In this document: piece by piece, positions 4,944 to 27,627 of the stretch | Numbering within the stretch: position 1 is the first letter of the stretch | Layout of the letters: each line of letters opens with the position of its first letter | Source of the DNA: a bacterium | GTDB lineage: Bacteria > T1Sed10-126 | Assembly (NCBI GenBank): GCA_003557545.1 | Contig: PWOD01000061.1 | Location: forward strand, 1-27,627 | Direction: 5' to 3' | Length of the DNA: 27,627 bases | The notes under the pieces: generated by a model | Databases searched by the model: none | What the model was told of the DNA's origin: nothing | What the model saw: only the letters and a program-made list of their open reading frames with translations | Translations under genes and position numbers: made by a program

Positions 4944-4967
4944 ACAACAGCTGTTACGGGAAATTTT

Positions 4968-5447: not shown

Positions 5448-5883
5448 CGCTATCGATAATAATTGTAACCGGCCCGTTATTTTCAGCAGATATCTGCATC
5501 ATGGCGCCGAACTTTCCGGTCGCCACGGAAACTCCGGTAAGGGCAGCCTGTTCGACAAAATAGTGATAAATCTCCCGGGCCCGCCCGGGAGGAGCAGCTG
5601 CATCAAAGCTCGGGCGCAACCCCCGGCTAACATCACCGTAGAGGGTAAATTGGGGAATTAGCAGAAGTTCACCGGAGATAGTTTTTAAATCATAATTCAT
5701 CCGCCCTGACTCATCCGGGAAAATTCTCAATCCGAGCAACTTACTGAGCAGCTGATCGGCAGTTTCCCTGTTATCCCCCCTGCCAATCCCCAAAAAAACC
5801 AGCGATCCCCGGTTGATTTTTCCCACTATACGACCATCCACACTGCAGCGAGCCGCATCTACCCGTTGAACAACCAGTCGCAT
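5440..5883 (-). CDS. dtd: D-aminoacyl-tRNA deacylase
   Basis: A 147-residue protein of the usual DTD length. It hydrolyses D-amino acids (and glycine mischarged on tRNA-Ala) from tRNA, proofreading chirality in the cytoplasm. Visible are the N-terminal MRLVVQRV, LRIFPDESGRMNYD, the active-site QFTLYGD with RPSF, and the cross-subunit NNGPVT (Gly-cisPro) motif. The start is ATG 5883: AAGGAG (5893-5898 on this strand) lies 9 bases upstream, whereas an in-frame TTG at 5892 abuts that site with no spacing. The usual SQFTL motif reads PQFTL, with Pro at residue 77, the column of E. coli Ser77. The DUF123 gene overlaps its end by 8 bases. Function is nearly certain; the effect of Pro77 is not known. 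Confidence 0.93.
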   Translation of the reverse strand: MRLVVQRVDAARCSVDGRIVGKINRGSLVFLGIGRGDNRETADQLLSKLLGLRIFPDESGRMNYDLKTISGELLLIPQFTLYGDVSRGLRPSFDAAAPPGRAREIYHYFVEQAALTGVSVATGKFGAMMQISAENNGPVTIIIDSDD

Positions 5884-5892
5884 TTCAGCCAA

Positions 5893-6155: not shown

Positions 6156-8084
6156 ATGAAAACCAGGCTTTATCTAGTTCTTATGCTAACAGGATTTATC
6201 TGTGGAGCGGCTCTACTGTCCGGCTCCCTGGCCGGTTCCCACCGATTAAAACCAACCATCGAACCCCAACTTCAGCAGCTAATTTCAACCGCTGAACAGC
6301 AGGGCCAGATTAAAGTAATGATCAGCCTTAACTTATCGACCAGAGCAGAATCCAGGATCAGCACCGCCGCGGTGAGCAGCCAGCGAGCAGCGATCAGCCA
6401 GGCCGCCAACCAGCTATCTCAACTGCTGATGAGTCGGGGAGCAACAGATATCAGACGGGCAAAAACTGTTCCCCTGGTGGGAGCAACAATAGATGCCGAA
6501 ACTCTGCGAGCAATAAAGGATTCCCCCCTGGTTAAATCGATCAGAGAACAGCAGGTTCTCCGCCCGTTAGACGGTCCTAACCTGCGACCATTACTGGACA
6601 CATCCGTCCCGCAAACCGAGGCAGATGATCTACACGGGGAGGGAATTAAGGGTGCTGATCAGTTGATTGCCGTGCTGGATACAGGAGTCGATACCCATCC
6701 GGCCTTCCGTGGTCGGAAACGAATCGTTGCTGAAGCCTGCTTTTCAAATGGTGGATGTCCGGATGGATCGGATGAAATGATCGGACCGGGAGCCGGCGCT
6801 GCTCTGCTGGTAAATGGTCAACCTGATCCGCACGGAACCCATGTGGCCGGAACAGCGCTGGGGGATTCGGTCCCCGCTCTCTCCCTGGCCGATGGGATGG
6901 CCCCTCGCTCGGGCCTGATCGCTGTAAATGTTTTTTCTGAGGATAACGGCGAAGCCAATACGGGAGATTTTAATTTGATTGCCGGACTTGAATGGGTGGC
7001 TGAACTGGCGGAAGATTCCCCGGTGGTTGCTGTTAATCTCAGTCTGGGCGGGGACCTCTACGACGAAGTCTGTGACGCGCAGTTTGGTTTCTATAAAGAT
7101 CTGTTCGATAACCTGCTGGGACTGGGAGTCGTCCCGGTGGCCTCCAGTGGTAACTCCGGGGAAACAAATAAGGTTGTTTTCCCGGCCTGTCTGTCCAACA
7201 CAGTAACAGTTGGAGCAACAAATAATTCAACTATTGCCAACTTTTCCAACCAGCACCCGGAGCTCGTCGATCTGGTTGCTCCGGGAACCAGTATTAAAGC
7301 GGCGGGGCCGAACAACAGCACAACGACAAAACAGGGAACCTCCATGGCCGCCCCCCACGTCGCCGGAGGAGTTGCCCTGCTGCAGGAGGCACTGACGGGG
7401 GAAGATTTAACTCCGGAAGAGCTGATCTTCGGACTTCGTCAAACCGCTGTGATGGTTGAAGATCAACGTAACTCAACCGGCAACCTATATCCAGCAATAC
7501 AGCTGGCGGCAGCCCGGGACTATCTTGCAAGTTTTAAACTTGATACCAATATTTTAACAATTAATGTAACTGGTCAGGGCCAGATCCTGGTGAATGGCGA
7601 CACCTGTTTTAGTGGTTCCACCCAGCTTCCAGTGGCAAATGGCGAAACTGTCACACTGGAAGCAATAGCCGAGGAAAAATGGCAGTTCGAAAACTGGGCC
7701 GGGGCTGTAATCTCCTCCGATACATCGGTTAAACTTTTTATCGACTCCCACAAAACTGTCTCTGCTGATTTTTTTGAACTACAACCAGGGCTGGACCAGA
7801 TGATCGTCGGACCAAATCCCTATCGGCCGCACGATGGGAATCCCGCCACCGGCAGCGATAAAATCATTTTTGACTTCAACTCTCCCCTGGAATCAGAGTT
7901 TGAGATTGAAATCTATACAATCGGCGGTTCGCTGGTTTACCAGACCAGAACCAGTGGAAATCGATACGAGTGGAATGCTCGCAACAACCAGAATCAGGCG
8001 GTTTCCAGCGGACACTACCTGTATCGGATCAAAGAGCTGACCCGCGGTCAGATCAAAACAGACCGGTTAGCAATTATCAGATAA
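6156..8084 (+). CDS. Secreted subtilisin-like serine protease P1 (short form) with one B-repeat and a FlgD-like C-terminal domain
   Basis: A 642-residue exoprotease of peptidase family S8. Order of parts: signal peptide 1-26 (SLAGS cleavage region), I9-like propeptide about 40-140 with a VKSIREQQVLRP end, S8 domain about 165-460, one B-repeat of the divergent InlB type 465-541, and a FlgD-like Ig domain 545-642 (GPNPYRP, IEIYTIGG, SSGHYLYRI). The catalytic set is complete: D175 (LDTG), H226 (HGTHVAG), N333 (SSGNSG) and S396 (GTSMAAPH). Four cysteines, C195, C201, C306 and C345, recur in all four paralogues and probably form two disulfides. The B-repeat has an extra Cys (GDTCFSG) and a short insertion not seen in the others. 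ATG 6156 has AGAGG nine bases upstream. It is the compact member at the head of the array. The substrate is unknown. Confidence 0.88.
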   Translation: MKTRLYLVLMLTGFICGAALLSGSLAGSHRLKPTIEPQLQQLISTAEQQGQIKVMISLNLSTRAESRISTAAVSSQRAAISQAANQLSQLLMSRGATDIRRAKTVPLVGATIDAETLRAIKDSPLVKSIREQQVLRPLDGPNLRPLLDTSVPQTEADDLHGEGIKGADQLIAVLDTGVDTHPAFRGRKRIVAEACFSNGGCPDGSDEMIGPGAGAALLVNGQPDPHGTHVAGTALGDSVPALSLADGMAPRSGLIAVNVFSEDNGEANTGDFNLIAGLEWVAELAEDSPVVAVNLSLGGDLYDEVCDAQFGFYKDLFDNLLGLGVVPVASSGNSGETNKVVFPACLSNTVTVGATNNSTIANFSNQHPELVDLVAPGTSIKAAGPNNSTTTKQGTSMAAPHVAGGVALLQEALTGEDLTPEELIFGLRQTAVMVEDQRNSTGNLYPAIQLAAARDYLASFKLDTNILTINVTGQGQILVNGDTCFSGSTQLPVANGETVTLEAIAEEKWQFENWAGAVISSDTSVKLFIDSHKTVSADFFELQPGLDQMIVGPNPYRPHDGNPATGSDKIIFDFNSPLESEFEIEIYTIGGSLVYQTRTSGNRYEWNARNNQNQAVSSGHYLYRIKELTRGQIKTDRLAIIR

Positions 8085-8164
8085 TCTATAGAGCCGGGCG
8101 AAAATCCGCGAAACCAGACGGCCGAACCATCAAAACCGCTGATAAAACAAGGTAATGAAGAGAG

Positions 8165-8193
8165 TTTATAGTGATAACTGTATCTGCTAAAAT
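8165..8193 (+). promoter_or_regulatory. Extended -10 promoter candidate for protease P2
   Basis: TTTATA (8165-8170, four of six -35 bases) lies 17 bases from TAAAAT (8188-8193), which carries the extended-minus-10 TGC immediately upstream. Start of transcription near 8200 would give a leader of about 33 nt. Confidence 0.45.
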
Positions 8194-8232
8194 TTAACCC
8201 TTTCACCTATCCTGCGGTTCGGGACGATAGCT

Positions 8233-11200
8233 ATGAATAGATCTCCGGTCAGCGGTTTAAACTGGCAACCAATTGAGCAAATGGTTCTATCCGCTCTGAC
8301 CTTGCTGTTAATGCTGTTACTAATCCTACCTGCTCCAGCAGAAGCAACTCCAGTTTCAGAGACGCTCTACGAAGCCGCACGGCGTGAGGGCAGTTTTCGG
8401 GTAATAATCACCCTGCGACTACCGTTACAGCCCCAGGCAAGCTCCCTGCCCGACGACAGGCCGCCTCTGCCCGAGATGATCGCCCTGATCAGCCAGGAGA
8501 TAGATAACCAGCTAAAAACAACCAGCAGTCGAGTAGAGAACCATTTGACCCGTGTTCCCCTTGCCGTGGCTCAAATAACCGAGGACGGGCTGGCCCTGCT
8601 TGACAGTAGCCCCTACGTCAAAACAGTCCATCGAGAGCAGATTCTCCGCCCCCTTAGCGGACCCACAATGCAGCCTCAGCTTGCGCAAAGTTCACCCACA
8701 ATTCAGGCCCCAACTCTGCATGGACAGGGCCATACGGGTAGTAACCGGCGGGTGGCAATTCTGGACACAGGAATCGCCACTCATCCAGCCTTCGGGGGAA
8801 GAACCAGAATAGTTGCCGAGGCCTGTTTTTCCAGCGGCGACTGTCCTGACGGTTCTGACCGAATGTTTGGAGAAGGAGCAGCAAAACCACTGATAATCAA
8901 CGGTCAACCGGACAGTCATGGTACCCATGTGGCAGGGATAGCGGCGGGCCAGGCGGTCGGATCGCTTAATCTCAACGACGGTGTTGCACCAGCAGCTGAT
9001 ATTATTGGAGCGAATGTCTTCCACGCCGGATTTTTTGGTCCTGGAGCCCGAGAAATGGATGTGCTTGATGGACTCGAATGGGTATTGAATTTAGCCGCTG
9101 ATACAGCGGTGGATTCGGTCAACCTGAGTCTCGGTGGTGGACGTCACAACAGTCCCTGTGACGCCAATTTTCCCGCCCAGAAGGAGCTGTTTGATCAACT
9201 TCTCGATGCCGGGGTCATCCCGGTGGCGGCCAGCGGGAACGATGGGCTGACCAACCAGGTTGCCTGGCCTGCCTGTCTATCTAATGTGGTGGCGGTCGGA
9301 GCTACATCCCAGGGACTGTTCGGCGGGAATGAAGAGATAGCCAATTTTTCCAATCAAAACCCCCAGATGACACCACTGGTCGCACCCGGAGCAAACATTC
9401 GAGCCGCTCTACCAAACAATGGTGCCGGCGACCAGAGCGGGACTTCAATGGCCGCCCCTCACCTGGCTGGCGGTATTGCTCTACTGCGTTCAGCTCTTGT
9501 GGAAGAAAATCCCGATCATGCTACACTGCTGCAGACGCTTGAAGAGACCGGCGAGGAGGTCCCCGACAACCGGCGAAATGGCCAGGGACCTTATAAAAGC
9601 ATCCGCCTGGCCAATGCCTTTGAAGAGCTGGCCGAAGAGGTTCCAGATAGCTATATATTAACGATCAACCGGCTAGGAAGCGGCGAGGTACTGGTCAACG
9701 GTGAAACTTATGTGGAGCCCCTGACTGTTTATGATGGGGACACAGTGACAGTTGAAGCAATCCCTGAATACAGCTGGTCATTTCACCGGTGGAGCGGCGA
9801 CCGAACCGATTCCGACAGCCTTCTACAGCTACTGGTGGAGGAAGATCTCAACCTGACGGCTGAGTTTAAACAACATGATACCTTCCTGGTAGAGATCGAC
9901 CAGCAGGGGGAGGGCGAGGTGCTGGTCGACGGACAGCTTTACAGCCAGCCGCTTCCGGTGGTGGCTAACCAACCGGTAGAGTTCCAGGCAGTCGCTGAAG
10001 ATTACTGGTATCTGGCCGAATGGGGGGGAGATTTAAGCGGTTCCGATACAGTAACCACACGTACTGCCGATACCGACCTGCTGATCACTGTAATCTTTGA
10101 AAAACATGATACAAACATCCTGACCGTAACAATTGAGGGTGAAGGTGAGGTCAGGATCGATGGGACAAGCTATTCAGAACCGGTCACGCTGATCCGTGGA
10201 GAAACGGTGGAACTCCGGGCTCTGCCCGAGCAGCACTGGATATTTTCTAACTGGCAGGGAGACATTTCCGGGCAGGATACAGCTGTTCAACTTCCGGTCG
10301 ATGATGATTATCATGTTACCGCCAGCTTTCGGCGGGATAGTTATACGATAGAGCTGGGGATAAACGGAGAAGGAACTGCCAGTATCAATGGAGAAACCTA
10401 CCTGAGCCCGATTGAAAAGCCGGCCGGAGAAACTCTACTGCTGAAAGCCTTTCCTGCCGACTACTGGAGTTTTACCGGCTGGTCGGGTGATATTACAGCC
10501 AGCGGTCAAACAACCACAGTTTACCTGGAAGATGACAGCCTGGTTACAGCAAATTTTGAGCGGGATGAGTTTGCCGGCGGCAGTGGAACAGAACAGGATC
10601 CCTATAAAATCGCCGACTGGTATCATCTTGACTCGGTTCGTAACCATCTCGATGCTAATTTTTTACTGATAAATAACCTTGATAAAACTTCGATGGGCTA
10701 TACCGAACTGGCCGGTGATACGGCGAATAACGGCGAAGGATGGCGACCCCTGGGGACAGCGGCAACCGCATGGTGGCTCCCGGGCAACCCTTTCACCGGA
10801 CAGTTTAACGGACAGCACTACCAGATTGCCGATTTTATTATTAACCGGCCAAACAGCAACAGTATAGGGCTGTTTGGACTGATGGAGGGAGTGATTACCG
10901 GAGTACATGTGATCTCCGGAGAAGTTACGGGGAACGACAACAGCGGGCTGCTGACCGGGCGGAATCGGGGAGAGATTAGCCAGGCGTCGGCGGCGGGGAC
11001 GGTCATCGGTAATGAACGGGTTGGAGCACTGGTAGGAGACAACTGGGACGGAGTAATCAGCGATTGTTATGCCACCGGGACCGTCGAAGGAGTTAATATG
11101 GTAGGTGGGCTGGTAGGAGATAACTGGGGTGAAGTTTATCGAACCTACGCCACTGCAACAGTTAGCGGTCAGAATAATTTTGGCGGCCTCATCGGGGCTG

Positions 11201-14200
11201 AAAATGACGCTACCACCGTCGATAGTTTCTGGGATCTGGAGCTATCTCAGCAGGCTAACAGCGCCGGTGGTGAGGGACTGAGCTCTTTAGATTTGAAAAA
11301 ACTCAGCACCTATCTCAACGCCGGTTGGGAGATCACAGAAACAGATGAGGATATTAATGATGGCTATCCCTATCTGGCTCCCACCGGAGCAACCTGGCGG
11401 ATACCCGGCAAGATTTTCACGCTGACTGTTACGATAGAAGGTGAAGGAACCGTCTTAGTCGACGGCGACAGCTATATCTCACCGGTTAGTTTTGGTGAGG
11501 GGGACAGTTTGTCTCTACAGGCAGTGGCGGCTAACGACTGGCGATTTGCCGGATGGAGCGGCGATATCAACAGTGACTCAACTACCCAGGTAGTAGCGGC
11601 CGATACAGATCAGTCTGTCACAGCAAGCTTTATCGAACATGACACCTGCCTGCTGACTGTCAGCCTGGTGGGTGAAGGCAGCGTCCTGGTTAATAATGAG
11701 ACCTATACGACACCGCTGGAAATAATTCAGGGAGAGACTGTCGAGTTGACCGCCTTACCGGAGGAATTCTGGGAGTTTACCGGCTGGAGTGGAGCGGGCA
11801 GCGGAGATAAAAAATCCCTGACTGTTCAGATAGATACCGACAGCCATTTCATAGCCAGCTTTATTCAACATGAAACAATCAGTCTATCCATCGATATCAT
11901 CGGGTCGGGAAATGTCCTGGTTAATTCAGAAACATATCTGGCCCCTCGACCACTGATCAAAGGTGATACTGTCATAATTAAAGCAGCACCGGCAGAGTTC
12001 TGGTCCTTTGCCGAATGGCAGGGCGATAGGGTGGATAGCTCTGTCCGATTGGAGTTTGTTGCCGACACCAATCTCCAGCTGACCGCCGTTTTCACCGAAC
12101 ATGACACCCTGACCCTGACAGTGATTATTGAAGGCGAAGGTACTGTCCTGGTTGATTCTAAAAAATATACAGAACCACTGTCTGTACGAAAAGAAGATAC
12201 AATTACATTAAGCGCAATTCCCGACAGCCATTTTAGTTTTACCGGTTGGAGCCAGGACCTCAACTCAAGCTCACCAGTGGAGCAGCTCTACCTGGATACT
12301 GATCTCACGGTGACGGCCAGTTTCCAGAGAGATACTCAGCTGCTGGAAATAATCCGCGAAGGGGAGGGAGATGTCCTGGTGAATGGTGAGCTGTATACCG
12401 ATACAAGAATAATCTTTTCAGGGGACAGCTTAACCCTTGAAGCTAATCCGGCTGAGTTCTGGAGCTTTGAACGGTGGGAAAACGGCTTCAGTTCAGATAG
12501 CGACAAGCTCCTGTTACATCCTGATTCTAACCTCACGATAACTGTCATCTTTCAACCGGTAAAATTTCTCGTTCGACTGGCCGTGGATGGTCCGGGACAG
12601 CTATTGCTCAACGGTGATACCTACCTCGAACCACAACGTATTCGAGGCGGCGAAACTATAACAATTAAGGCGGTTGAGACCGACCTCTGCTACCGGTTTA
12701 AACAGTGGACCGGGAATTTCACTGGAACAGCTACTTACGAGGAATTGACCGTGGTCGACGATTTCCACTCAACAGCCCAGTTTGTGCCAAATTTTCACGC
12801 TGGTGAGGGTAGTTCGGTAGATCCCTATCAGATTGAAAACTGGTATCATCTGCATAGTATCCGCTGTTTTCCGGAAGCAAAGTTTGACTTGATCAAACAG
12901 CTTGATGCAGCTGACAGCGGCTACGCTGAGCTGGCCGGGCCAGCCGCCCACTCGGCGACAGGGTGGCTTCCTGTGGGAGATAACAGTTCACCCTTCGCCG
13001 GGGTGTTCAGCGGGAACAACCATAAAATTAAAGATTTTCAGATAGATCGAACCGGTCACAGCTCTACCGGACTGTTCGGTGAAACTGCTGACAGCAGTAT
13101 TATCAGCGACCTGAAACTGAGAAATTTCGAGATTAAGGGCGATACCTTTACCGGTGCCATAAGCGGTTTAAACAGGGGTGAAATCAACAACAGTTCAGCC
13201 CTTGGTGAAGTTTCTGGAGGGTCCGGTTCAGGCGGCCTGGTGGGAGTCAACTGGCGGGGTCAGCTGAACGCTCTCTATTTCCATGGTAAGGTTGAGGGAA
13301 CCACAATGGTGGGGGGTGTCAGCGGGGTAAATTTTGAAGGAAAAATCAGCAACAGCTATGCCCGGGGAGAGCTTACCGGCAGCCGCAAAGTCGGGGGAAT
13401 AACCGGTCGCAATCTGGGCGGCGATCTATTAAACACCTATTCCACAGCAGCTGTCCAGGGAACTGAATATACCGGTGGAATCAGTGGTAAAACTGAAGCC
13501 ACCTGGACCGGACCGCCACCCACAGTTGTTGCCAGCTTCTGGGATGAAACTGCCAGCGGAATTAGCAGCAGTGAGGGTGGCGAGGGTAAACCGACCGGAG
13601 CGATGCAGGCGCTGGCAACCTACCTGGAAGCCGGATGGACAATCCGGGGGGCCGCCGAAGATCAAAATGACAGCTATCCCTTCCTCTCTGAGTCGGGTGA
13701 TGAATGGTTAATAGCGGTTCCAGAACTGACCCTAACAATTGATATTGAGGGGGAAGGCAGCGTATTAATTAACGGTGAGACCTATCTTGCCCCAATAAAA
13801 ATAGATGGTGGGAGCAGTGTCACACTGGAAGCAGTTCCTGGAGAAGATTTCTTTTTTGATGGCTGGTCTGGTGAACTGCTCAGCGCCGACACTAAAATCG
13901 CCCTGCTGGTTAACCGGGATAAAGAGTTTGTCGCGAGATTCCGGGATAGCTACCGACTTGACCTGTCAATCATTGGTGAGGGCAGGATAGAAGTCGATGG
14001 CCTTCCGGTAACCGGGTCGGTAGAACGCACCCCCGGCAGTCAGCTGCTGGTGGAAGCAACCCCGGACAGCTACTGGCAGTTCAGCGGCTGGGAAGCGCTT
14101 CCGGATACTAATCCACAGCGCTCTATCCAGCTAAACTCTGATACCCAGCTAACTGCTCTGTTTGAACCGATCATCTATGAATTTTCAGCAATATTTGTCG

Positions 14201-14994: not shown

Positions 14995-15111
14995 AACCGT
15001 CTTTTTCAGATTACTGGCCAGTAAAAAAAACAGTATTGAGCTGCCAAATTTTCCAGCCGAGAGGAACAATACCGCACGCAGAGAAAATTCTCCCGGCTAA
15101 AATGGATTCAG

Positions 15112-15140
15112 TTTATTATAAAGCTCAGTTCTGCTATGAT
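15112..15140 (+). promoter_or_regulatory. Extended -10 promoter candidate for protease P3
   Basis: TATGAT (15135-15140) with TGC directly upstream is a good extended -10 box; TTTATT (15112-15117) stands at 17-base spacing as a weak -35. The arrangement copies that before P2 (TTTATA, 17 bases, TGC before the -10). The leader to the GTG start would be about 120 nt. Confidence 0.45.
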
Positions 15141-15255
15141 ATAGTGTGTAGAATTTTTTTCTGAAACAGTTTTAAATGATTGAAACTATCAGTTTTAAGC
15201 GACAAGCTACCGGAATTTTCAGGGTGGTGTGAAACTCAATGGGCCAACCAACGGC

Positions 15256-15261
15256 AGGAGG
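15256..15261 (+). promoter_or_regulatory. Ribosome binding site favouring the GTG start of P3
   Basis: Perfect AGGAGG seven bases before GTG 15269. It lies inside the reading frame if ATG 15239 were used, which argues for the downstream start. Confidence 0.6.
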
Positions 15262-15268
15262 TGGTGCT

Positions 15269-18200: not shown

Positions 18201-21200
18201 TCCAGGACAGTTTCTGGGATACGGAGACGAGCAATCAATCCAGCAGCGCCGGAGGGGAGGGACTGACAACCGAAGGGATGCAGAATATCGATAACTATCT
18301 TGCCGCCGGCTGGGATATCGCTGAAACGTCAACAATTACAAACGACGGTTATCCCTTCCACCCGAGCGGAAGTGCCAGCTGGAAAATATCGGAGAACTCG
18401 ATTGATCTGACGGTTAATATAATCGGCAGTGGAAATGTCTATATAGACGGAGAAACCTATACCACCCCGACCGAACTACCGATTGAAGAAACTGTTGATT
18501 TTGAAGCTGTCCCGGCGCCGGGCTGGCGGTTTGATGGTTGGAGTGATGACCTGAGTGGTACAGAACCGGTGACCAGCCTGTTTACCGGAGTTGACGACAA
18601 GTCGATAACTGCCAGCTTCACACAGCTGGATACCAGCTTTCTAACAATTGATTTACAGGGAGAAGGAACTGTTCTGGTTGATGGAGACAGCTACACAGCA
18701 GCCGTGCTGCTGGCCCGGGGAACTACTGTTACAGTGGAAGCAGTTCCTCAACATCTCTGGTATTTTACCGGCTGGACGGGAGACTATACTGTGGCTGACA
18801 CCAGCTTTCAGCTGCTGGTCGATGATCCGGTTGATCTAACCGCCAATTTTGCTGCCCATGACACTCATCTACTAACCGTACAGATCAATGGCGGGGGGAC
18901 TGTCGCTGTGAATGGTGCCGATTATCAGCAGCCGCTGGCAGTACAGGCGGGAGAAACAGCCACCCTTACAGCCTGGCCGGAATACTACTGGTTTTTTGAA
19001 GTATGGACCGGAGCCGCCAGTGGAACCGACACAGAGATTGAACTGCTGATTGATAGCGATATGCTGGTCGCAGCTAATTTTGGCCAGTTTGACACCTATC
19101 TGCTGGAAATAGATATTACCGGTAATGGGACAGTGCTGGTCAACCAGCAGCCCTACAGCTCCGCCCAACCGGTCATTGCTGGTGACAGTTTCAGTCTCGA
19201 GGCGGTTCCCGACAGTTACTGGTCGTTTGACGGTTGGGGGGGAGCCAGCACTCAAACCGATAGCTCAATCGAACTGGTGGCCGATGACGACATCTTTTTG
19301 AGCGCCAGTTTCACCCGGGACACAGAGATTTTTTCGGCCAGCATTAGCGGAGAAGGTGAGCTCCTGGTGAATGGAACCAGCTACACCACGCCGCTTATTA
19401 TTGAGGCCGGAGAGACAGTTTTATTAGAAGCGGTTGCGGAAAAACATTGGTATTTCAGTGGATGGGGCGGAGATTTAACCGGGTCTGACAGCAGTGAGAT
19501 TTTGCTGATTGATGAGCACAAACAGGTGGAGTTGAATTTCCAACGAATTCCCCGGCTGATAGTTATTAATACGGTGGGACCCGGTGTTGTCCTGGTAGAC
19601 GGCGACAGCTATAGCGGCCCGTTTATAGCTGAATCCGGAGATACCCTGGAGTTGAAAGCGCAGCCAGAAAGTTTTTGTTACCGGCTGGATAGCTGGACGG
19701 GTGGACTGACCGGTGAGACAGCAGTCAAGGAGCATTACCTGGAGGCCGATCTATTCGCCACCGCCAGTTTTATACCAAATTTTGCCGGTGGTACCGGAAC
19801 AGCGGCTGATCCCTTTGAGATAGCTACCTGGACGGAGCTCAACAGCCTCCGCTGTTTCCCGGATTCAAGTTTTTTGCTGATCGAAAATCTCGATCCCCAG
19901 ACAGCTGGTTACCAGGAATTTGCTGACGAAGCCGCTCATGGTGGAAAAGGATGGGAACCACTGGGTACCGTCTCCCAACCGTTCAACGGAGGGTTTGACG
20001 GCGAGGATCGACTTATCGAGGGGCTTCAAATTAACCGCCCAGACAGTGACCATATCGGACTGTTTGGCCAGGCTGGGGACAGCAGCCAGATCAAACGGCT
20101 AAACCTGATAAATACAACCGTTCAGGGAAGAGATTATGTGGCTGCTCTGGCCGGCTCCAACCGGGGGGCAATCTACCGACTGGCAGTTGACAGCGGCAAC
20201 ATCAGAGGACAGAACAAAGTTGGTGGACTGATCGGAGAACAGCAGGGAGAAACAATCAGCATCAGCTATTCCGACCTGCCGGTGGAAGGAACCAATAATT
20301 CCGGGGGGCTGGTTGGAAGCAATTATCAAGGTACAATTATTAACAGCTATGCCATGGGTGCAGTCACCGGGCAGGCCCAGACCGGTGGATTAATTGGAGA
20401 AAATATCAGCGGGCTGGTAATCAACAGTTACGCCGTCGGATCTATCCCGACAAACCTTAATTCGGGCGGGCTAATTGGTGAGTCTAAAAGTTCAGCTGCC
20501 GGACCACCTCAGATAATTTCCAGTTTCTGGGATCTAGAACGCTCAGGGATCACGATCAGCTCCGGAGGCCAGGGCCTTTATACAGGCCAGCTAAAAAATA
20601 TCTATACTCTGCAAAATGCCGGCTGGGCGATTGAGCCGACCGGCCAGGATCAAAACCGGGGTTATCCCTATCTCTCCGGCGATAGCCCACCCTGGATTGT
20701 CCCGGTCGACCATGTTGAGCTACAGCTGGAGACTATTGGCGAGGGCCAGATTAAGTTCGGCGGGGAACCGGCCGGCGAAACAATCTCCCTGGTGCGAGGT
20801 GAAACTATTCCGCTGCAGGCTGTAGCCGATGATTACTGGCATTTTGTCGAATGGTCGAATGGGATCAACGGTGAGAGCGCCACAAAGAGTTTCTACCCGG
20901 AACAGAACAGTACGATCAGCGCCCGGTTTGAACGTGATACCCACCTGGTTGAATTAAACCGGATTGGTCCCGGAACTGTGCTCCTCAACGGGGATACGGT
21001 TAATTCACCCCGGGTCTTTTATGGGGGGGAGAGTGTCACAATCACAGCCCTCCCTGAAAAATTTTATCAACTGCAAGAATGGCAGGGCGACCTGCAGGGG
21101 GACACAGCAGAACAACAGCTATTAATCGACTCCGATAAGAGTATAACTGCCCTGTTCAGCCGGGATTCTTACAGTCTGACAATCGATCTGGTTGGCCAGG

Positions 21201-23773
21201 GGGGAGTAACCGTTAATGGTGAACCATATCAGGGTCCAGTGGAAGTAACCGCCGGAGAAACCGTCCAGCTTGAGGCCCATCCTGATACCCACTGGCAGTT
21301 TTCCGAATGGGATAATTCAATCAACAGTTCAGCGCTATCTTTCGATCTGTTTGCAGATACTGATAAATTTATCACTGCCCGCTTCGAACGTGATACGATT
21401 CTGCTTTCAATCGATCAACAGGGGGAGGGAACTGTCCTGGTGGCGGGAGAAACATACCAGCAGCCGGGAATCTCTCTTTACAGCGGAGAAACTGTTGAGC
21501 TGGTAGCAATCAGCGACGATTTCTGGTCGTTTGATCGCTGGGATAATTTGACCCATAGCTCCGGTGAAACAGCCCTGCTATATGCTGAACAGGATCGTGA
21601 AATTAAGCTATTTTTTACACAGGATACACGGGTTTTACAGCTGCATATCGAGGGAAATGGGACAGTTCTGGTTGACTCAGAAAACTATACAACCACCCTG
21701 GACGTACCGGCCGGCGATACGATTGATCTCACAGCTGTTGCTGAAGCTAATTGGCGCTTCTTCAGCTGGCAGGGTGACCTGACAGGAAACCGGCCCCAAC
21801 AGGGACTGTTTGTTGATGACGATAAAATCGTCACCGCCAGCTTTAAATTTGCTCCGCTAAATCTAACGATAACCACTCGCGGCGAGGGGGCAGTCCTGGT
21901 AGAGGGTGAGACCTACATCTCAACCGTTTCACTGATCCCGGGGGAAACAGTTACTCTAACAGTTAATCCAGAGTTTGGCTGGCATTTTAAAAAGTGGACC
22001 GGTGAGCTTGACAGTTTTGACAGTCAACTGCAGATCGCAGCTGATACCGATCTCAGCCTGACTGCAAACTTTCAACGCGATACCCATATTTTGACTGTGA
22101 CCGCGGTAGGCGAGGGGGAGATCTTAATCAACGGAATAAAATACGAACAGCCCTTTGTCCTGCCGGCGGGCGAAACTGTCCAGCTGGAGGCTGTTCCCGA
22201 TGAGTTTTCAAGATTTTCCAGCTGGAGTGGCGCCCTGAGTGGGACAGAACCGGTGCAACCCCTGGCGATTTATCGGGATAGAACTGTCGGAGCATTATTT
22301 GTAAAGAAAAGTTACACTCTGGAAGCCGAACTACTGGGTGAAGGAGAACTTCTAATTGACAGTGACACCTATGTATCACCGCTATCTCTGACTGCCGGAG
22401 AGACTATACAGTTGACGGCGCTACCAGCAGAATACTGGAGATTTGACAGCTGGGATAAAGATCTCAGCGGCGAAACCCCCCAGCTCGAGCTGCTGGTCGA
22501 TCGCGATTTCCAGTTAGAACTAAACTTCCTGCGAAAACTCCATGAACTGAAGTTACAGGTCGAGGGTAACGGACTGGTAACTATCAACGGTCAGCTCTAT
22601 CAAGAGCCTCTGATCCTGACCGCCGGGGAAACTGTTGCACTACAGGCAACTGCCGGTCCCGGGGCCTATTTTGCAGGCTGGCGAGGGGATCTGCTTTTCG
22701 ACCAGCCAGTTAAAAACCTGCTAATCGATACCGATAAGCTAATTACTGCAGTATTCTGGAATGATTACTACAGCCTGGAGATCGAAATTATTGGCGAAGG
22801 AGATATTTTTGTGGAAGGGCAGCCCTATGTTGGACCGATCGATCTGGCCTCCGGTGACACGATAGTTCTGGAAGCATCTCCGGAGCAGTTTTATCTATTC
22901 TCCGCCTGGCGGGGTGACATTGATTCCCGCGATCTAACAACGGAGGTTTTTATTGATTCAGACAAAAAAATCACCGCTGACTTTAACCGCGACAGCTATC
23001 TGCTAACAGTCGATATCACCGGATCGGGAAAGATCCAGGTTGACGACAGTTACTATACTACTCCTCGCCCTATCTTCGCGGGTGAAACCCTCACACTAAC
23101 TGCCCACCCGGAAGATTTCTGGAAATTTGAGGGCTGGGAGGGAGCTTTAACAAGTTCCGATACGACCATTCAGATCTTTGTCGAATCTGATCTGGAACTA
23201 ACAGGAGTTTTTCAGCGGCGCAGTTACCTGCTGGAAATTACGGTTGACGGCCGGGGGGATATCATTGTTGACGGGGTCAAATATGATAATCCGCTAGCTG
23301 TCACAGCTGGTGAAACTGTTATTCTGTCAGCAATCGACCAGCGATACTGGCCGTTTATACAATGGACCGGTGATCTCAGCGGGACTGATACCACAACAGT
23401 GCTATTCATTGATGGGGACAAACAGATCCAGGCCAATTTTGACCGGGGCGGGCCAGGACTTTCACAGCTCAGAGTCGGGCCCAACCCCTTCCGCCCCGAC
23501 GACGGACGCAGTGCAACCGGCGAGGCCGGGGTCCGCTTTGAATTTAACTCATTTGAAGATGGTCCCTATGAGATAGAGATCTATACAATCACCGGACGCC
23601 GGGTCTATCGGACAACCACCCATACTGACCCATTTGTCTGGGACGGTAGAACCCCCGGAGGCCGGGCGGTTTCCAGCGGATATTATCTGTACAATGTCAG
23701 GGAAAAATCGTCCGGACAGAATCGCACAGGTCGGCTGGCAATCATCTGGGAGAGAGATCCTTACGACGATTGA
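15269..23773 (+). CDS. Giant secreted subtilisin-like protease P3 with 22 B-repeats and two GLUG blocks
   Basis: From GTG 15269 the protein has 2834 residues. This start gives a clean MRNQLL signal peptide ending AGRA|N; ATG 15239 would prepend ten uncharged residues, has only AGGGTGG at 11 bases and remains possible. Parts: I9-like propeptide about 30-130, S8 domain about 155-450 with D167, H218, N327 and S394 (GTSFAAPH), B-repeats 1-4 (462-767), GLUG block 1 (768-1044), B-repeats 5-10 (1045-1504), GLUG block 2 (1505-1815), B-repeats 11-22 (1816-2726), and a FlgD-like Ig domain 2727-2834 (GPNPFRPDDG, IEIYTITGR, SSGYYLYNV). The four S8 cysteines are kept. It has the same plan as P2, without the extra Ig-like domain and with nine more repeats in the last block. 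It is exported; attachment through the C-terminal domain is inferred. The substrate is unknown. Confidence 0.88.
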   Translation: MRNQLLVFFLIFAGLLLASIPRAGRANLPPELLEQIETEGEFRVIIQLEMPDTLRPFSQLSPVDRQQRQQQIQTAQETVSQQLSATGSTVEGRSRRVPALVARVNRQGLEQLAQSTAVRSIHREQILTPLTSQPISPMLAESAPTIEADTMHSRGFTGAGRGVAILDTGIDDHPAFGGRSRIVAEACFSDGDCPNNSDTMVGPGAAAALMVGGTPDSHGTHAASIAAGSAVPSLNIQQGVAPEADIIGINIFHDAAGEANAREWDLYYAIEWLTELAEDSPVVSANLSLGAGSYDDHCDNVGSFGIGKEYFDDLIAAGVIPIAASGNAGQTDRVAFPACLSNTVAVGATSTSGGSEQIASFSDLHPDLADLVAPGHNIWAAKPGNDAGEQSGTSFAAPHVAGGIGLLREALAWENPSDSELINALKETGEPIQDQRFQGQGSYKSIRLNASYEMLAAMGDTYLLTVDIEGDGEVRVDGASYTEPLVLFEGSTVTLEAIPEKLNYFDGWTGDLTGSDSTVQLFIDADKQLTARFEAHDTQLLTINQTGQGEVAVDGELYTAPRPVIANETVELSAVAEEFWYFVDWSGDHSSSDSTTSLLIDTDKTVEASFAPHDTYSLTLDINGNGTVLVDGDSYTTTRTVIAGETVELTAVADQFWLFDSWEGDLSGSTESEQLLVEQDKQVTVNFLQDQYNLTIVIEGEGEVLVEGDTYVGPIQLLAGETVVLEAIPANYYEFYGWEGGTSGSSQITGLFMDDDKLVTAVFVPEQFAGGEGTALEPYEISNWYHLDSVRHHMQAYFRVIDHLDSNSFGYTELAGPDANGNTGWQPLGSSSNAFGGSFDGQNYQLSGLFINRPAEEDIGLFGASVGTIENLHLKDLTISGGSNSGGVAGINQGSILWSSSSGTVSGTNAVGGLVGSNSLSDTLANSYSRAAVEGEENVGGLVGNNFLGNISKSYSAGPVTGIDNTGGLAGNNLWGNIQDSFWDTETSNQSSSAGGEGLTTEGMQNIDNYLAAGWDIAETSTITNDGYPFHPSGSASWKISENSIDLTVNIIGSGNVYIDGETYTTPTELPIEETVDFEAVPAPGWRFDGWSDDLSGTEPVTSLFTGVDDKSITASFTQLDTSFLTIDLQGEGTVLVDGDSYTAAVLLARGTTVTVEAVPQHLWYFTGWTGDYTVADTSFQLLVDDPVDLTANFAAHDTHLLTVQINGGGTVAVNGADYQQPLAVQAGETATLTAWPEYYWFFEVWTGAASGTDTEIELLIDSDMLVAANFGQFDTYLLEIDITGNGTVLVNQQPYSSAQPVIAGDSFSLEAVPDSYWSFDGWGGASTQTDSSIELVADDDIFLSASFTRDTEIFSASISGEGELLVNGTSYTTPLIIEAGETVLLEAVAEKHWYFSGWGGDLTGSDSSEILLIDEHKQVELNFQRIPRLIVINTVGPGVVLVDGDSYSGPFIAESGDTLELKAQPESFCYRLDSWTGGLTGETAVKEHYLEADLFATASFIPNFAGGTGTAADPFEIATWTELNSLRCFPDSSFLLIENLDPQTAGYQEFADEAAHGGKGWEPLGTVSQPFNGGFDGEDRLIEGLQINRPDSDHIGLFGQAGDSSQIKRLNLINTTVQGRDYVAALAGSNRGAIYRLAVDSGNIRGQNKVGGLIGEQQGETISISYSDLPVEGTNNSGGLVGSNYQGTIINSYAMGAVTGQAQTGGLIGENISGLVINSYAVGSIPTNLNSGGLIGESKSSAAGPPQIISSFWDLERSGITISSGGQGLYTGQLKNIYTLQNAGWAIEPTGQDQNRGYPYLSGDSPPWIVPVDHVELQLETIGEGQIKFGGEPAGETISLVRGETIPLQAVADDYWHFVEWSNGINGESATKSFYPEQNSTISARFERDTHLVELNRIGPGTVLLNGDTVNSPRVFYGGESVTITALPEKFYQLQEWQGDLQGDTAEQQLLIDSDKSITALFSRDSYSLTIDLVGQGGVTVNGEPYQGPVEVTAGETVQLEAHPDTHWQFSEWDNSINSSALSFDLFADTDKFITARFERDTILLSIDQQGEGTVLVAGETYQQPGISLYSGETVELVAISDDFWSFDRWDNLTHSSGETALLYAEQDREIKLFFTQDTRVLQLHIEGNGTVLVDSENYTTTLDVPAGDTIDLTAVAEANWRFFSWQGDLTGNRPQQGLFVDDDKIVTASFKFAPLNLTITTRGEGAVLVEGETYISTVSLIPGETVTLTVNPEFGWHFKKWTGELDSFDSQLQIAADTDLSLTANFQRDTHILTVTAVGEGEILINGIKYEQPFVLPAGETVQLEAVPDEFSRFSSWSGALSGTEPVQPLAIYRDRTVGALFVKKSYTLEAELLGEGELLIDSDTYVSPLSLTAGETIQLTALPAEYWRFDSWDKDLSGETPQLELLVDRDFQLELNFLRKLHELKLQVEGNGLVTINGQLYQEPLILTAGETVALQATAGPGAYFAGWRGDLLFDQPVKNLLIDTDKLITAVFWNDYYSLEIEIIGEGDIFVEGQPYVGPIDLASGDTIVLEASPEQFYLFSAWRGDIDSRDLTTEVFIDSDKKITADFNRDSYLLTVDITGSGKIQVDDSYYTTPRPIFAGETLTLTAHPEDFWKFEGWEGALTSSDTTIQIFVESDLELTGVFQRRSYLLEITVDGRGDIIVDGVKYDNPLAVTAGETVILSAIDQRYWPFIQWTGDLSGTDTTTVLFIDGDKQIQANFDRGGPGLSQLRVGPNPFRPDDGRSATGEAGVRFEFNSFEDGPYEIEIYTITGRRVYRTTTHTDPFVWDGRTPGGRAVSSGYYLYNVREKSSGQNRTGRLAIIWERDPYDD
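16652..17569 (+). repeat. P3 B-repeat block A, four copies
   Basis: Copies begin at 16652, 16883, 17114 and 17342. Two 77-codon copies ending HDT are followed by two of 76 codons, the same succession as in P2 block A. Confidence 0.85.
17570..18400 (+). repeat. P3 GLUG block 1
   Basis: It opens AGGEGTALEPYEI and WYHLDSVR, carries GLUG motifs (GVAGINQ, GLVGSNS, GLVGNNF, GLAGNNL), and closes SFWDTETS, GGEGL and NDGYPF. Confidence 0.75.
18401..19780 (+). repeat. P3 B-repeat block B, six copies
   Basis: Copies begin at 18401, 18635, 18866, 19097, 19325 and 19547. The first three end in DT at 77-78 codons. The sixth has GPG and a Cys (FCYR, codon 19676-19678), as in P2. Confidence 0.85.
19781..20713 (+). 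repeat. P3 GLUG block 2
   Basis: It opens AGGTGTAADPFEI and continues SLRCFPD with the same Cys (19852-19854) as P2 GLUG block 2. GLUG motifs include GLIGEQQ, GLVGSNY, GLIGENI and GLIGESK. It closes SFWDLERS, GGQGL and NRGYPYL. Confidence 0.75.
20714..23446 (+). repeat. P3 B-repeat block C, twelve copies
   Basis: Copies begin at 20714, 20942, 21170, 21398, 21629, 21854, 22085, 22313, 22541, 22769, 22997 and 23225. Most are exactly 228 bases (76 codons) and many end RD[ST]. Two to four consecutive copies are never near-identical in DNA, so expansion is not very recent. Confidence 0.85.
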
Positions 23774-23870
23774 TCAGCGGAGCTTAACGCTTAACCAGTA
23801 AAACTCTATTACCAGCCTCAAAAAGCTGTCGATCGGTTACAGCACAATCGCCAGCAGGAGAGTTAATAAA

Positions 23871-26800
23871 ATGAAACAGTATTTTTCAACAGGATTGCTG
23901 TCAACTGTTACCTGGCTAACTTTTATAATACTGGCATGTACAGCAGGCTCAGGCCTACCGGCAAACGCTCACCCGGCCGGACCGGGAGTTGCAGAACTAA
24001 AAGCCACCGCCCGCCAGCAGGGGACAATCCGACTGATGGTCGAGCTGAATCTAACAACCAGAGCCGAAGCAGGACTTAGCCCGCAAGGGGTGGCTGCTCA
24101 ACGGGAGCGGATCGCCAGGACAGCCGACCAACTTGGCCGCCAACTGGTAAATCAACCGGGAGGAATCAAACGACAACTGCGAAGCATTCCACTGCTGGTG
24201 GTAGAAACAACTCCTGAAGGAATAGCCCAACTGGCTGACAACCCTCTGGTAAAAAATCTGCGGCAGGAACAGCTGTTCAGACGGTTGGAACAGCCCACCA
24301 TCTCCCCACAGCTAAACCTCACTGTTGACCGAATTGAAGCCTCAGAGCTACACTCTTCAGGCTTCACCGGTGAAGGTCTTAACCTGGCCGTAATTGATTC
24401 CGGGATCGATACCCATCCGGCCTTTAACGGCCGGCAGAAGATCATCGCTGAAGCCTGCTTCACTGACGAAGCCTGTCCCAACGGTGAGGATTCAATGATC
24501 GGCCCCGGAGCTGCTATTCCGGCTGATGACGCCGGAACTCCCGATCCCCATGGAACCCATGTGGCAGGCATTATGGCAGGACTGCCGGTTGCTTCACAAA
24601 ACCTCGACAGTGGAATAGCTCCGGGAGCTAACCTGGTTGGAATAAATGTTTTTTATCAGAATAACAATAACGAACTAAATGCGCGAGAAGGCGATGTTCT
24701 CTCAGCACTTGACTGGCTGCTGGAAATTAATCCCGATACACCGGTGGCTGTGGTTAACCTGAGCCTGGGCATGGGAGAATACGACAGCGTCTGTGACGCA
24801 CAGTTTCCAACAATCAAAAACCTCTTCAGCGATCTGCGGGATGCGGGGGTTGTTCCGATAACCGCCAGTGGCAACGATGGAAAGAGCGCCCAGACAGTTT
24901 TTCCGGCCTGTCTGTCCAACACCCTGGCAGTTGGTGCAACAAAACTCAGCGGAAACAGCGAAGCGATAGCCGATTTTTCTAACCAGCACCCGGAACTGAT
25001 CGATTTTGTCGCCCCGGGCGACCAGATCTACGCTGCCGGTCCCGGCGGCAGCGGGCTGTTTAAAAGCGGCACCTCAATGGCAGCCCCCCATCTAAGCGGA
25101 GGGGTCGCTCTCCTCCGCCAGGCGGTCGCTCCGGAATCGCTGTCAATTAAAAAGCTGGTGGAAGCCCTGGCTGAAACCGGTAAACTGATAGCCGATGATC
25201 GTGAGGAACACGGCCCGGTTTACGAATATAGAAGCATCCGACTGAAGTCGGCCGCCGACTATCTGGAGACTGCTCTGCGCGACAGCTATACTCTGGAGAT
25301 TCAGCTGGACGGATCGGGCGATGTGATGGTGGACGGTGAATCATACCTGGAACCGGTCCAGCGGTATGAGGGAGAGACTCTCCTGCTTGAAGCGGTCCCG
25401 GACCCCCTCTGGATTTTTGACGGATGGAGCGGAGCAATCAGCAGTGGAGACAGTACGATTGAACTAACCCTGGATTCAAACAAACAGCTCACAGCCAGCT
25501 TTAATAAACTTTCCACTGTCAAATTACAGCTGGATATCCAGGGAAAAGGAGCAGTTGAAATTGCCGGCGAAGCAGTCTCCGATACAATAAAATTAATTAA
25601 AAATCAGCCGGTCGAACTACAGGCCATAGCGGACGAACTGTGGTATTTTGAAAACTGGAGCGGAGATTTGAACAGTCCCGACCCAACCCTTAATTTGATC
25701 CCCGATACCGATCTTAATCTAACTGTTAATTTTATTCAACACGATACATACAGTATTACTGTGCATAAATTCGGGGAGGGCGAAGTTTTCATCAACGGGC
25801 AGCCCTATGTCGAAACTCGTGATGTTGTCCAGAACGACACCGTTCATCTCCAGGCTGTGCCGGACGAACTCTGGTATTTTTCCGAATGGAGTGGAGAGTT
25901 TATATCGAACGAACCGGAGATTCAGCTGCTCGCCGACTCAAATCTTTTGATCGAAGCTAGATTTTCTCCCCATGATACCCGGTTGCTGACAATCGACCAG
26001 ATCGGCGACGGGACTCTCCTGGTCAACGGAGACAGCTATCTTGAACCGCGCTCCATCAGAGCAGGAGATACCGTCACTCTGGAGGCCAAAGCTGCCTCTT
26101 TCTGGAACTTTTCTAACTGGAGTGGCGCGGTGGAAAGTTCTGATACAATCATCCAGATGATCATGCATACCGACCAGCAACTAACGGCTGAATTTATTAG
26201 ATTAACCTTCACCCTGACAAGCGAGATAAATGGACAGGGAGCACTGCTCGTCAACGGAGAAACCGCTCCTCAGGAAATGGTTGTGAACGCCGGGGAAACT
26301 GTTCTGCTCGAGGCCCAACCGGCCGCCGGCTGGCTATTTCGGCAGTGGGGGTTGGATATCACCGATACAGTACCGGTAAAACAGTTGTTTATCGATGAGG
26401 ATCAGCTCGTCACCCTCTATTTTAAAGAAACTGGACTGGCTGATGGCCAGGGCACTTTAGAAGATCCTTTTCTGATCACTGACTGGTACCATCTTGATGC
26501 CATGCGGAATTATCCTGACGCTGTTTTTATTTTAGGCGCCGATCTCGACAAACAGAGCAACGGCTACCAGCAGATGGCCGGTCCCCTCGCCCGGGGCGGA
26601 GCAGGTTGGAAACCTGTCGGTGACTACTTACCCGCTCCCTTTAAGGGGATAGTTGATGGGCAGAACCATACTATTAAAGATCTTTATATTAACCGGCCAA
26701 CGGAATCAAGCATCGGCTTATTTTCCAATATCGAAGAGTGTACAGTTAAAAATTTAGAGCTGGACGAACTGACTATTAAAGGTCATATACGGGTGGGAGG

Positions 26801-27627
26801 ATTAACCGGCCGGATGGATAATGGTCTGATAAAAAATCTTAAAGTGTCGGGCAGGATCGAGGGTGACAGTTTTATCGGAGGGGTGGTGGGAGATAACTGG
26901 AACGGAACGCTCAACCAGGTGGCAAGCCATGTTGAGATAACCGGCGGGGAATTTATCGGGGGAATTATTGGGGATGGATTCAATGGCGAGCTGACCAACT
27001 GCTATAGCCGGGGGAGTATCAGTGGACGGCGCACCGCAGGCGGGCTGGTGGGACGGCTGTGGGACAGCACCATTGAAAACTGCTATTCAATCTCCCAGCT
27101 GAGCGGACTGACCCAGATTGGTGGCTTGATCGGCGCCACCGAATTCACTCCAACAATTACCGCCAGCTTCTGGGATACTGAACGCTCCGGACAGATGACA
27201 AGCGCCGGAGGCACCGGCCTCAGCAGCCGCGAGATGCAAAATATTAACAGCTACCAGGGGAGCGGCTGGGAGATCTCCCCGACCGGTGGGTTAACTAACG
27301 ATGGCTATCCCTATCTTTCGGGTGAAACCGATCCTGTATGGTTAAAAAGCACTCTGGTTCTGGTTGAGATTAAAGGCCAGGGTTCAGTTCTGATTAACGG
27401 TGACAGCTATCTTCAGGCGCTCCCGGTTACCCCCGGTGAAACGGTAACAGTCACAGCCCGGCCAGCTGAATTCTGGAGTTTCCAAAACTGGGAAAACAGC
27501 CTGACTACCGGACTGAAAGAGATCGTTCTTACAGTCGATCAGGACCTCCCGCTAACAGCCCGATTCATCCAGGACACCTATCTGCTGAATATCACTACTG
27601 TTGGTGAAGGTTCAGTTAAACTGGATA
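23871..27627 (+). CDS. Giant secreted subtilisin-like protease P4, 5' part (runs off the window)
   Basis: The frame is open from ATG 23871 (AGGAG ten bases upstream) to the last base: 1252 codons with no stop. Parts: signal peptide with two possible ends, a lipobox-like IILAC (Cys23) or ANA|H at 33/34; I9-like propeptide about 40-140; S8 domain about 160-460 with D176 (in DSG rather than the DTG of its siblings), H227, N335 and S402 (GTSMAAPH); B-repeats 1-5 (473-854), one more than P2 and P3 have here; a GLUG block (855-1160); B-repeat 6 (1161-1236); and the start of repeat 7. The four S8 cysteines (ACF, ACP, VCD, PACLSN) are present. It lies 97 bases after P3 without a clear promoter, so it may depend on readthrough. 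A second GLUG block and a FlgD-like end are expected beyond the window but not seen. Confidence 0.87.
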   Translation, partial: MKQYFSTGLLSTVTWLTFIILACTAGSGLPANAHPAGPGVAELKATARQQGTIRLMVELNLTTRAEAGLSPQGVAAQRERIARTADQLGRQLVNQPGGIKRQLRSIPLLVVETTPEGIAQLADNPLVKNLRQEQLFRRLEQPTISPQLNLTVDRIEASELHSSGFTGEGLNLAVIDSGIDTHPAFNGRQKIIAEACFTDEACPNGEDSMIGPGAAIPADDAGTPDPHGTHVAGIMAGLPVASQNLDSGIAPGANLVGINVFYQNNNNELNAREGDVLSALDWLLEINPDTPVAVVNLSLGMGEYDSVCDAQFPTIKNLFSDLRDAGVVPITASGNDGKSAQTVFPACLSNTLAVGATKLSGNSEAIADFSNQHPELIDFVAPGDQIYAAGPGGSGLFKSGTSMAAPHLSGGVALLRQAVAPESLSIKKLVEALAETGKLIADDREEHGPVYEYRSIRLKSAADYLETALRDSYTLEIQLDGSGDVMVDGESYLEPVQRYEGETLLLEAVPDPLWIFDGWSGAISSGDSTIELTLDSNKQLTASFNKLSTVKLQLDIQGKGAVEIAGEAVSDTIKLIKNQPVELQAIADELWYFENWSGDLNSPDPTLNLIPDTDLNLTVNFIQHDTYSITVHKFGEGEVFINGQPYVETRDVVQNDTVHLQAVPDELWYFSEWSGEFISNEPEIQLLADSNLLIEARFSPHDTRLLTIDQIGDGTLLVNGDSYLEPRSIRAGDTVTLEAKAASFWNFSNWSGAVESSDTIIQMIMHTDQQLTAEFIRLTFTLTSEINGQGALLVNGETAPQEMVVNAGETVLLEAQPAAGWLFRQWGLDITDTVPVKQLFIDEDQLVTLYFKETGLADGQGTLEDPFLITDWYHLDAMRNYPDAVFILGADLDKQSNGYQQMAGPLARGGAGWKPVGDYLPAPFKGIVDGQNHTIKDLYINRPTESSIGLFSNIEECTVKNLELDELTIKGHIRVGGLTGRMDNGLIKNLKVSGRIEGDSFIGGVVGDNWNGTLNQVASHVEITGGEFIGGIIGDGFNGELTNCYSRGSISGRRTAGGLVGRLWDSTIENCYSISQLSGLTQIGGLIGATEFTPTITASFWDTERSGQMTSAGGTGLSSREMQNINSYQGSGWEISPTGGLTNDGYPYLSGETDPVWLKSTLVLVEIKGQGSVLINGDSYLQALPVTPGETVTVTARPAEFWSFQNWENSLTTGLKEIVLTVDQDLPLTARFIQDTYLLNITTVGEGSVKLD
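25287..26432 (+). repeat. P4 B-repeat block A, five copies
   Basis: Copies begin at 25287, 25518, 25749, 25980 and 26205. The first three have 77 codons (the second and third end HDT), then come 75- and 76-codon copies. The equivalent block in P2 and P3 has four. Confidence 0.83.
26433..27350 (+). repeat. P4 GLUG block
   Basis: It opens ADGQGTLEDPFLI and WYHLDAMR, carries GLUG motifs (GLTGRMD, GVVGDNW, GIIGDGF, GLVGRLW, GLIGATE), and closes SFWDTERS, GGTGL and NDGYPYL. It lacks the RCFP cysteine, matching the first rather than the second GLUG block of P2 and P3. Confidence 0.73.
27351..27627 (+). repeat. P4 B-repeat block B, cut by the window end
   Basis: One full copy (27351-27578) and 16 codons of the next (from 27579). 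More copies are expected downstream by analogy with P2 and P3. Confidence 0.75.

Follow-up and report, generated by a model that had tools for sequence, protein, structure and literature searches.

A tandem array of S8 proteases on repeat stalks

The stretch of DNA analyzed here (the window, positions 1-27627) is the entire contig C104 of G000, a metagenome-assembled genome of 2.15 Mb in 239 contigs. It belongs to the phylum T1Sed10-126 (Candidatus Busufiota), for which a 2024 review lists two genomes, both from the sediment of hypersaline soda lakes, with sizes of 2.15-2.2 Mb and a GC content of 46-48% (PMC11382960); G000 is presumably one of the two. Metagenome-assembled genomes of T1Sed10-126 have also been reported from salt-mine and saltmarsh samples (PMC10104926, PMC12942990). 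Our open reading frame (ORF) and domain scans revealed four genes on the plus strand, P1 to P4, extending from position 6156 to the contig end and each headed by an S8 protease. P1 (6156-8084; 642 amino acids [aa]) consists of the S8 head, one B-repeat, and a C-terminal tail; P2 (8233-14994; 2253 aa) and P3 (15239-23773; 2844 aa) carry long B-repeat stalks interrupted by GLUG blocks between head and tail; and P4 (23871-27626, with the contig ending at 27627) remains open at the contig end after at least 1252 aa.

The peptidase S8 domains are located on the plus strand at 6654-7448 in P1 (E 2.6e-38), 8740-9549 in P2 (E 7e-37), 15749-16552 in P3 (E 8e-31), and 24369-25148 in P4 (E 2e-35), and the PF00082 search placed all four members well over the curated cut-off (101-131 bits versus 21.8; E 9e-29 to 2e-37). 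Identity among the four heads was 43-55% (E 1e-129 to 1e-138), and because the heads are paralogous at this level the array is not a chance arrangement; the initial annotation of four consecutive, same-strand, paralogous S8 genes was borne out. In the alignment, Asp175, His226, the oxyanion Asn333, and Ser396 (P1 numbering) were invariant in P1-P4 and in the homologue from G001, so that the catalytic residues reported earlier as intact are indeed retained in all four. G001, a genome of 2.2 Mb from a different genus, was the only other genome compared from the phylum, and G000 was the only one compared from its own genus. Matches of the heads to mycosin, dentilisin, and PatA fell far under their cut-offs and reflect the common S8 fold, so these identities were rejected. 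Upstream of the P1 catalytic domain, an inhibitor-I9-like prodomain (6303-6554, plus strand; approximately residues 50-133) was predicted by the structure model in the order beta-alpha-beta-beta-alpha-beta, with a predicted local distance difference test (pLDDT) score of about 90 over most of its length, and Foldseek matches of the P1 chain included pro-subtilisin E 3whi and pro-Tk-subtilisin. The Pfam family expected for this prodomain, PF05922 (Inhibitor_I9), was not matched in P1-P4.

P1-P4 account for four of the five S8 domains detected in G000. The fifth, on contig C133 (L165:941-4714; at least 1258 aa, open at the contig end), lies directly after two giant B-repeat genes and combines an S8 domain, a CBM_X2 domain, and a metallo-beta-lactamase-fold domain in a single chain that is not close to P1-P4.

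The stalks were delineated with a hidden Markov model (HMM) built on the window's own units. The single B-repeat of P1 lies at 7554-7778. In P2, B-repeats 1-4 (9658-10566) are followed by GLUG block 1 (10567-11418; 284 aa), B-repeats 5-10 (11419-12789), GLUG block 2 (12790-13728; 313 aa), and B-repeats 11-13 (13729-14391). P3 repeats this order with B-repeats 1-4 (16655-17566), GLUG block 1 (17567-18406; 280 aa), B-repeats 5-10 (18407-19777), GLUG block 2 (19778-20719; 314 aa), and B-repeats 11-22 (20720-23446), the last segment accounting for its greater length. P4 starts with B-repeats 1-5 (25290-26429), followed by a GLUG block (26430-27359; 310 aa) and by B-repeat 6 with the beginning of repeat 7 (27360-27626). 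The earlier counts of 1, 13, and 22 B-repeats in P1-P3 were reproduced, while the claim of at least seven in P4 holds only if the cut unit is included, as six are complete and only the first 15 residues of a seventh are present at the contig edge. The GLUG counts of 0, 2, 2, and at least 1 were confirmed. With Pfam models, PF18998 passed its cut-off in P2-P4 and fell just short in P1 (21.6 versus 23.6 bits), where the repeat was found by the window-unit HMM; PF07581 passed in P2, P3, and P4, with no match in P1.

P2 and P3 thus share the layout 4B-GLUG-6B-GLUG, and the sole difference is the tail-proximal segment of 3 versus 12 units. Their stalks are co-linear, as units in matching slots scored higher than units paired otherwise (p 0.004 in a double-centred permutation test). 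The effect was clearest at slots 1-4 and 10, and each GLUG block of P3 found its best match in the block of P2 at the same position. This layout is kept at about 50% unit identity. Across P1-P4, the median nearest-neighbour unit identity was 42-50%, no array unit was more than 61% identical to another unit, and no tandem DNA repeats were detected in the array, which therefore bears no mark of recent slippage. Periscope proteins (PMC8201768) provide a comparison, since there, too, the number of stalk repeats would set how far an N-terminal head projects. Periscope repeats show high DNA identity and differ in number from strain to strain, whereas the array units are approximately 50% identical, form no detectable tandem DNA repeat, and vary between paralogues. 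The lack of tandem DNA repeats and of array units above 61% identity led us to reject a periscope mechanism for this array.

The C-terminal tail and a candidate export route

A common C-terminal domain was found in P1 (7800-8081, plus strand), P2 (14701-14979; E 1e-44), and P3 (23468-23749; E 1e-45), as the initial annotation had claimed, and P4, cut by the contig end, would be expected to carry one as well. The tail spans approximately 94 residues with the pattern GPNPFRP...GxLVY...W...SSGYYLY...GRLAIIR, can be aligned over 27 genes, and coincides with the C-terminus or ends at most 7 residues from it in 27 of the 27 ORFs checked. The earlier label of a FlgD-like domain did not survive: PF13860 (FlgD Ig) had no match at E 0.001 in P1-P4, and C-terminal domains (CTDs) of the type IX secretion system (T9SS) matched better structurally. 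An AlphaFold2 model of the B-repeat and tail reached a mean pLDDT of 90, and VIA-align ranked the PorZ CTD as the best match to the P1 tail (Z 10.4, 89 residues aligned, root-mean-square deviation 2.6, 27% identity), followed by the CTDs of PorU (Z 10.3) and mirolase (Z 9.8) and by Vpr (Z 9.7). The RemA CTD bound in the T9SS complex scored Z 9.7 and NucA-CTD Z 8.8, and generic immunoglobulin (Ig) and FN3 domains mostly scored Z 8-9. The best PDB sequences for the tail profile were likewise PorZ (E 3e-6), PorU (4e-4), and the T9SS substrate chain 8glk_D (0.007), and among NCBIfam models the PorZ and PorU C-termini and the Por sorting tail matched, all under cut-off. The modeled tail therefore looks like a type IX secretion CTD rather than a FlgD domain. 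The type B CTD model TIGR04131 had no match in P1-P3.

The neighbourhood of tail genes elsewhere in the two genomes points in the same direction. PorV-family barrels (NF033709) were found over cut-off six times in G000 and several times in G001, where one match (on contig C45) was recovered only with its neighbours in the frame. Among the matches listed, with the partial matches at G000 C141 and C164 and at G001 C99 omitted, the barrel was the immediate 3' neighbour of a same-strand tail gene in 7 of 7 cases in G000 and 8 of 11 in G001, at a distance of 87-287 bp from tail match to barrel match, and the paired barrels exceeded the curated cut-off in 6 of 7 and 7 of 8 cases, respectively. In G001, contig C118 (L170) carries a tail gene, a PorV-family gene, an S8-plus-tail gene, and another PorV-family gene consecutively, which amounts to two adjacent cargo-barrel pairs. 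A SprA-like protein was found on G000 contig C23 (L152; TIGR04189, E 2e-21), with a homologous fragment in G001; TIGR04189, run with an Algoriphagus control, was used instead of PF14349, which was uninformative because it matched no control. A possible C-terminal SprA part starts at the edge of G000 contig C86 (L153:7270-9369, minus strand), so that this SprA-like homologue outside Bacteroidota is apparently split across C23 and C86 at a putative junction.

The pairing recalls T9SS type B cargo in Flavobacterium johnsoniae, which is often encoded beside its own PorP/SprF shuttle (PMC12618676, PMC9143113), the barrel gene likewise lying directly 3' of the cargo, including the giant repetitive SprB. 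The barrels of G000 and G001, in contrast, are members of PorV/PorQ and accompany a tail of type A-like character, while type A cargo of F. johnsoniae share one PorV (PMC12618676). In the limited literature searched, we found no account of a PorV-family barrel gene paired with a type A-like tail.

On this evidence, we consider it reasonably probable that P1-P4 are surface S8 proteases that use a T9SS-like export route, are held on spacers, and arose by tandem duplication. Several results weigh against this reading. The P1 model predicted the S8 core poorly, which leaves sequence as the basis of the catalytic assignment. The T9SS sorting domain TIGR04183 reached 20.3 bits against a cut-off of 23 in P1 and had no match in P2 and P3, for which reason the tail is not assigned to type A membership, and a CHU_C (PF13585) match in the tail stayed under cut-off. 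The window contains no PorV gene, and the 3' side of P4 lies beyond the contig end; cargo-barrel adjacency was seen at tail genes elsewhere in G000. The SprA-like match scored 74.8 bits against a curated cut-off of 200, in a gene cut by the contig end. Neither the PorU sortase (PF01364, C25 family) nor GldM/PorM (TIGR03517) was found in G000 or G001, with the Algoriphagus control positive for both. Because PorU and GldM were not found, the T9SS of G000, as far as its gene content indicates, is not canonical, although each genome is approximately 92% complete and this absence is thus not proven.

Mirolase and other S8 proteases of Bacteroidota (Tannerella forsythia) are among the closest likenesses, as they too combine an S8 domain with a C-terminal Ig-like T9SS CTD, and only the PorZ and PorU CTDs matched the P1 tail better in structure than the mirolase CTD did. 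Mirolase presumably has no B-repeat or GLUG stalk and sits within a complete T9SS; the array tail, by comparison, scores too low to pass as a type A CTD, and searches of G000 yielded neither PorU nor GldM. The cell-envelope S8 proteases of Gram-positive bacteria (C5a peptidase ScpA, SpyCEP, and lactocepins) also hold an S8 head off the surface on downstream domains, and ScpA and SpyCEP were among the structural matches. These enzymes are anchored by sortase or to the cell wall and use other spacer domains, whereas the array proteins lack an LPXTG-type end.

Origin of the array within a genome-wide scaffold

The maximum-likelihood tree of the heads had the topology ((P1,P4),(P2,P3)), and the four array heads grouped together (support 96/93) to the exclusion of the sole relative from the phylum, which upholds the view of the four genes as one tandem family. 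The sister of this clade was the S8 head encoded on contig C45 of G001, part of an S8-plus-tail gene followed by a PorV-family gene, a position from which we infer that the array expanded by tandem duplication after the two genera split. G001 has two S8-plus-tail genes, on different contigs, without B-repeats, and each followed by a PorV-family gene. The initial annotation had held that unlinked, unrelated exoproteases in related genomes would contradict it; in part this is what G001 shows, its two S8-plus-tail genes being unlinked and free of B-repeats. When named genomes were scanned with the alignment of the heads, the hits were a G001 contig, PWHN01000032.1 (bacterium isolate T1Sed10_126), and otherwise generic subtilases; named relatives outside the phylum were more distant S8 proteases, and a contig scan for relatives with P1 alone returned nothing. 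Because P1 groups in the tree with P4, whose layout is stalked, stalk loss is the simpler account of P1, whose single repeat is probably not a starting state, and the ancestor of the array was probably already stalked.

This history bears on the proposal in the initial annotation that the locus keeps head and tail constant while grading stalk length, in other words that four genes are retained so that one proteolytic activity acts at set, different distances. In its favor, the complete members have all kept protease head and tail while carrying 1, 13, and 22 repeats, and with no near-identical repeats the lengths appear old and stable rather than in flux. The heads, however, share only 43-55% identity and may differ in specificity; each array tail is nearer to tails elsewhere in G000 than to its fellow array tails, so the tails are not array-specific; P2 equals P3 save for one segment; the one-repeat P1 is sister to P4 instead of marking a step in a series; the array was seen in one genome only; and the same scaffold, with 0-48 repeats, stands behind unrelated heads throughout the genome. 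We therefore regard adaptive distance grading as unlikely. Display of the enzyme away from the envelope is another matter: it is the natural reading of the layout, because long stalks separate the catalytic head from a putative anchoring tail. What the genome-wide spread of stalks and the head tree argue against is a purpose-built graded set, and an adaptive value of the differing lengths is possible.

The scaffold itself is abundant in G000. On the fetched contigs, approximately 513 B-repeat units occur in approximately 45 open frames (112 kb, 5.2% of the assembly), some of which are pieces of one gene, and frames with B-repeats or tails together cover about 220 kb (10%); the assembly is fragmented at repeats. 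Most of these frames have no protease head. The other heads include GLUG blocks, BspA-type LRR_5, glycine-rich, and beta-helix-like regions, and genes built on this scaffold also stand next to one another in tandem on contigs C20, C105, C112, C133, and C152. The array is thus the protease-bearing share of a larger set, presumably of giant surface proteins, that is spread over the whole genome.

Such abundance raises the question of whether stalk length is largely non-adaptive, the four protease genes having been caught up in a lineage-wide B-repeat expansion. The excess of approximately 513 units over the 8 PF18998 matches scored in G001 with the Pfam model, the fact that the closest relatives of most window units are in other genes of G000, and the absence of array-specific tails are all consistent with this explanation, which is compatible with surface display by stalked proteases. 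Nevertheless, all four long frames are open, unit boundaries and hydrophobic pattern are conserved, and the persistence of the P2/P3 layout at approximately 50% unit identity suggests purifying selection, leaving non-adaptive length somewhat doubtful. The same inventory of heads could also indicate that the repeats are not mainly spacers, and that B-repeats and GLUG blocks bind cells, polymers, or each other in adhesin or matrix proteins that the protease head trims or releases. B-repeats and GLUG blocks are indeed common without protease heads, several relatives bear beta-helix or LRR heads typical of adhesins, and the rod is broken by GLUG blocks in P2-P4. This possibility has to contend with catalytic residues that are intact in all four heads and with P1 and the G001 homologues, which have few repeats or none but still possess both head and tail and so identify these two parts as the conserved core; we judge it improbable.

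Further observations concern the scaffold genes beyond the array. On contig C214 (L154), three frames with B-repeats (4459, 489, and 403 aa) are lined up on one strand with single stop codons between them, and unit identity within the 403-aa frame reaches 98.6%, as in a giant gene with stops, a recent duplication, or an assembly error. Contigs C31 (L134:5476-7848) and C11 (L140:2691-5840) each encode a BspA-type LRR_5 head, one B-repeat, and a tail, with B-repeats 91% identical, probably due to recent duplication. Contig C152 (L164:738-8681) holds three tandem paralogues from a separate family; they carry 2, 2, and 5 B-repeats, and no tail was recognised in them. Contig C128 (L166) has a GC content of 35.7% compared with about 47% in other fetched contigs and is possibly mis-binned.

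For the window itself, a chance or mis-binned contig is unlikely, as its B-repeats and tails have counterparts on many contigs in the bin and its heads have counterparts in G001; GC was 49% in the flank and 52% in the array, compared with 47% (46.6%) for the fetched G000 contigs. The left flank (window 307-5892) encodes a Kdo/WaaP-type kinase, a type I phosphodiesterase, a protein-kinase-like protein, DHH and DUF123 proteins, and a D-Tyr-tRNA deacylase, and it showed no synteny with the two G001 S8 loci, having no neighbours in common with them. Promoters and terminators between the array genes showed no excess over shuffled sequence, and no contig continuing P4 was found by 15-mers shared at the ends of the fetched contigs.

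Probable surface display and its meaning

Under the favored reading of stalked surface proteases, P1-P4 would be exported by the Sec pathway, and the subtilisin-like S8 protease would fold and become active with the assistance of its prodomain. The tail would guide passage over the outer membrane through the SprA-like pore, after which a PorV-family barrel would capture the tail and the protein would be retained at the surface. In P2-P4, the B-repeats may form rods with GLUG interruptions that keep the protease off the envelope, while the P1 protease would stay close to it. P2 and P3 would have inherited one stalk layout, with later gain of units beside the tail in P3 and loss of the stalk in P1. 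The likely role of such enzymes would be the digestion of protein, their presumed substrate, at or near the surface in hypersaline soda-lake sediment.

More broadly, and tentatively, T1Sed10-126 (Ca. Busufiota) may possess a type IX-like system without recognisable PorU and PorM that serves many cargo proteins, each with its own PorV-family shuttle, and one genus may use it to display a giant B-repeat arsenal including four stalked proteases. The list of T9SS parts (a CTD-like tail, PorV-family barrels, and a SprA-like protein) would thereby be extended to a phylum with two GTDB genomes. In placing a PorV-family gene after type A-like cargo, these genomes show a layout that is described in Bacteroidota for type B cargo with SprF, and this yields a testable prediction about the matching of shuttles to cargo and about the smallest set of parts with which a type IX-like system can work. 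The array would, in addition, supply natural paralogues that carry 1, 13, and 22 spacers, material with which to test the effect of stalk length on surface proteolysis.

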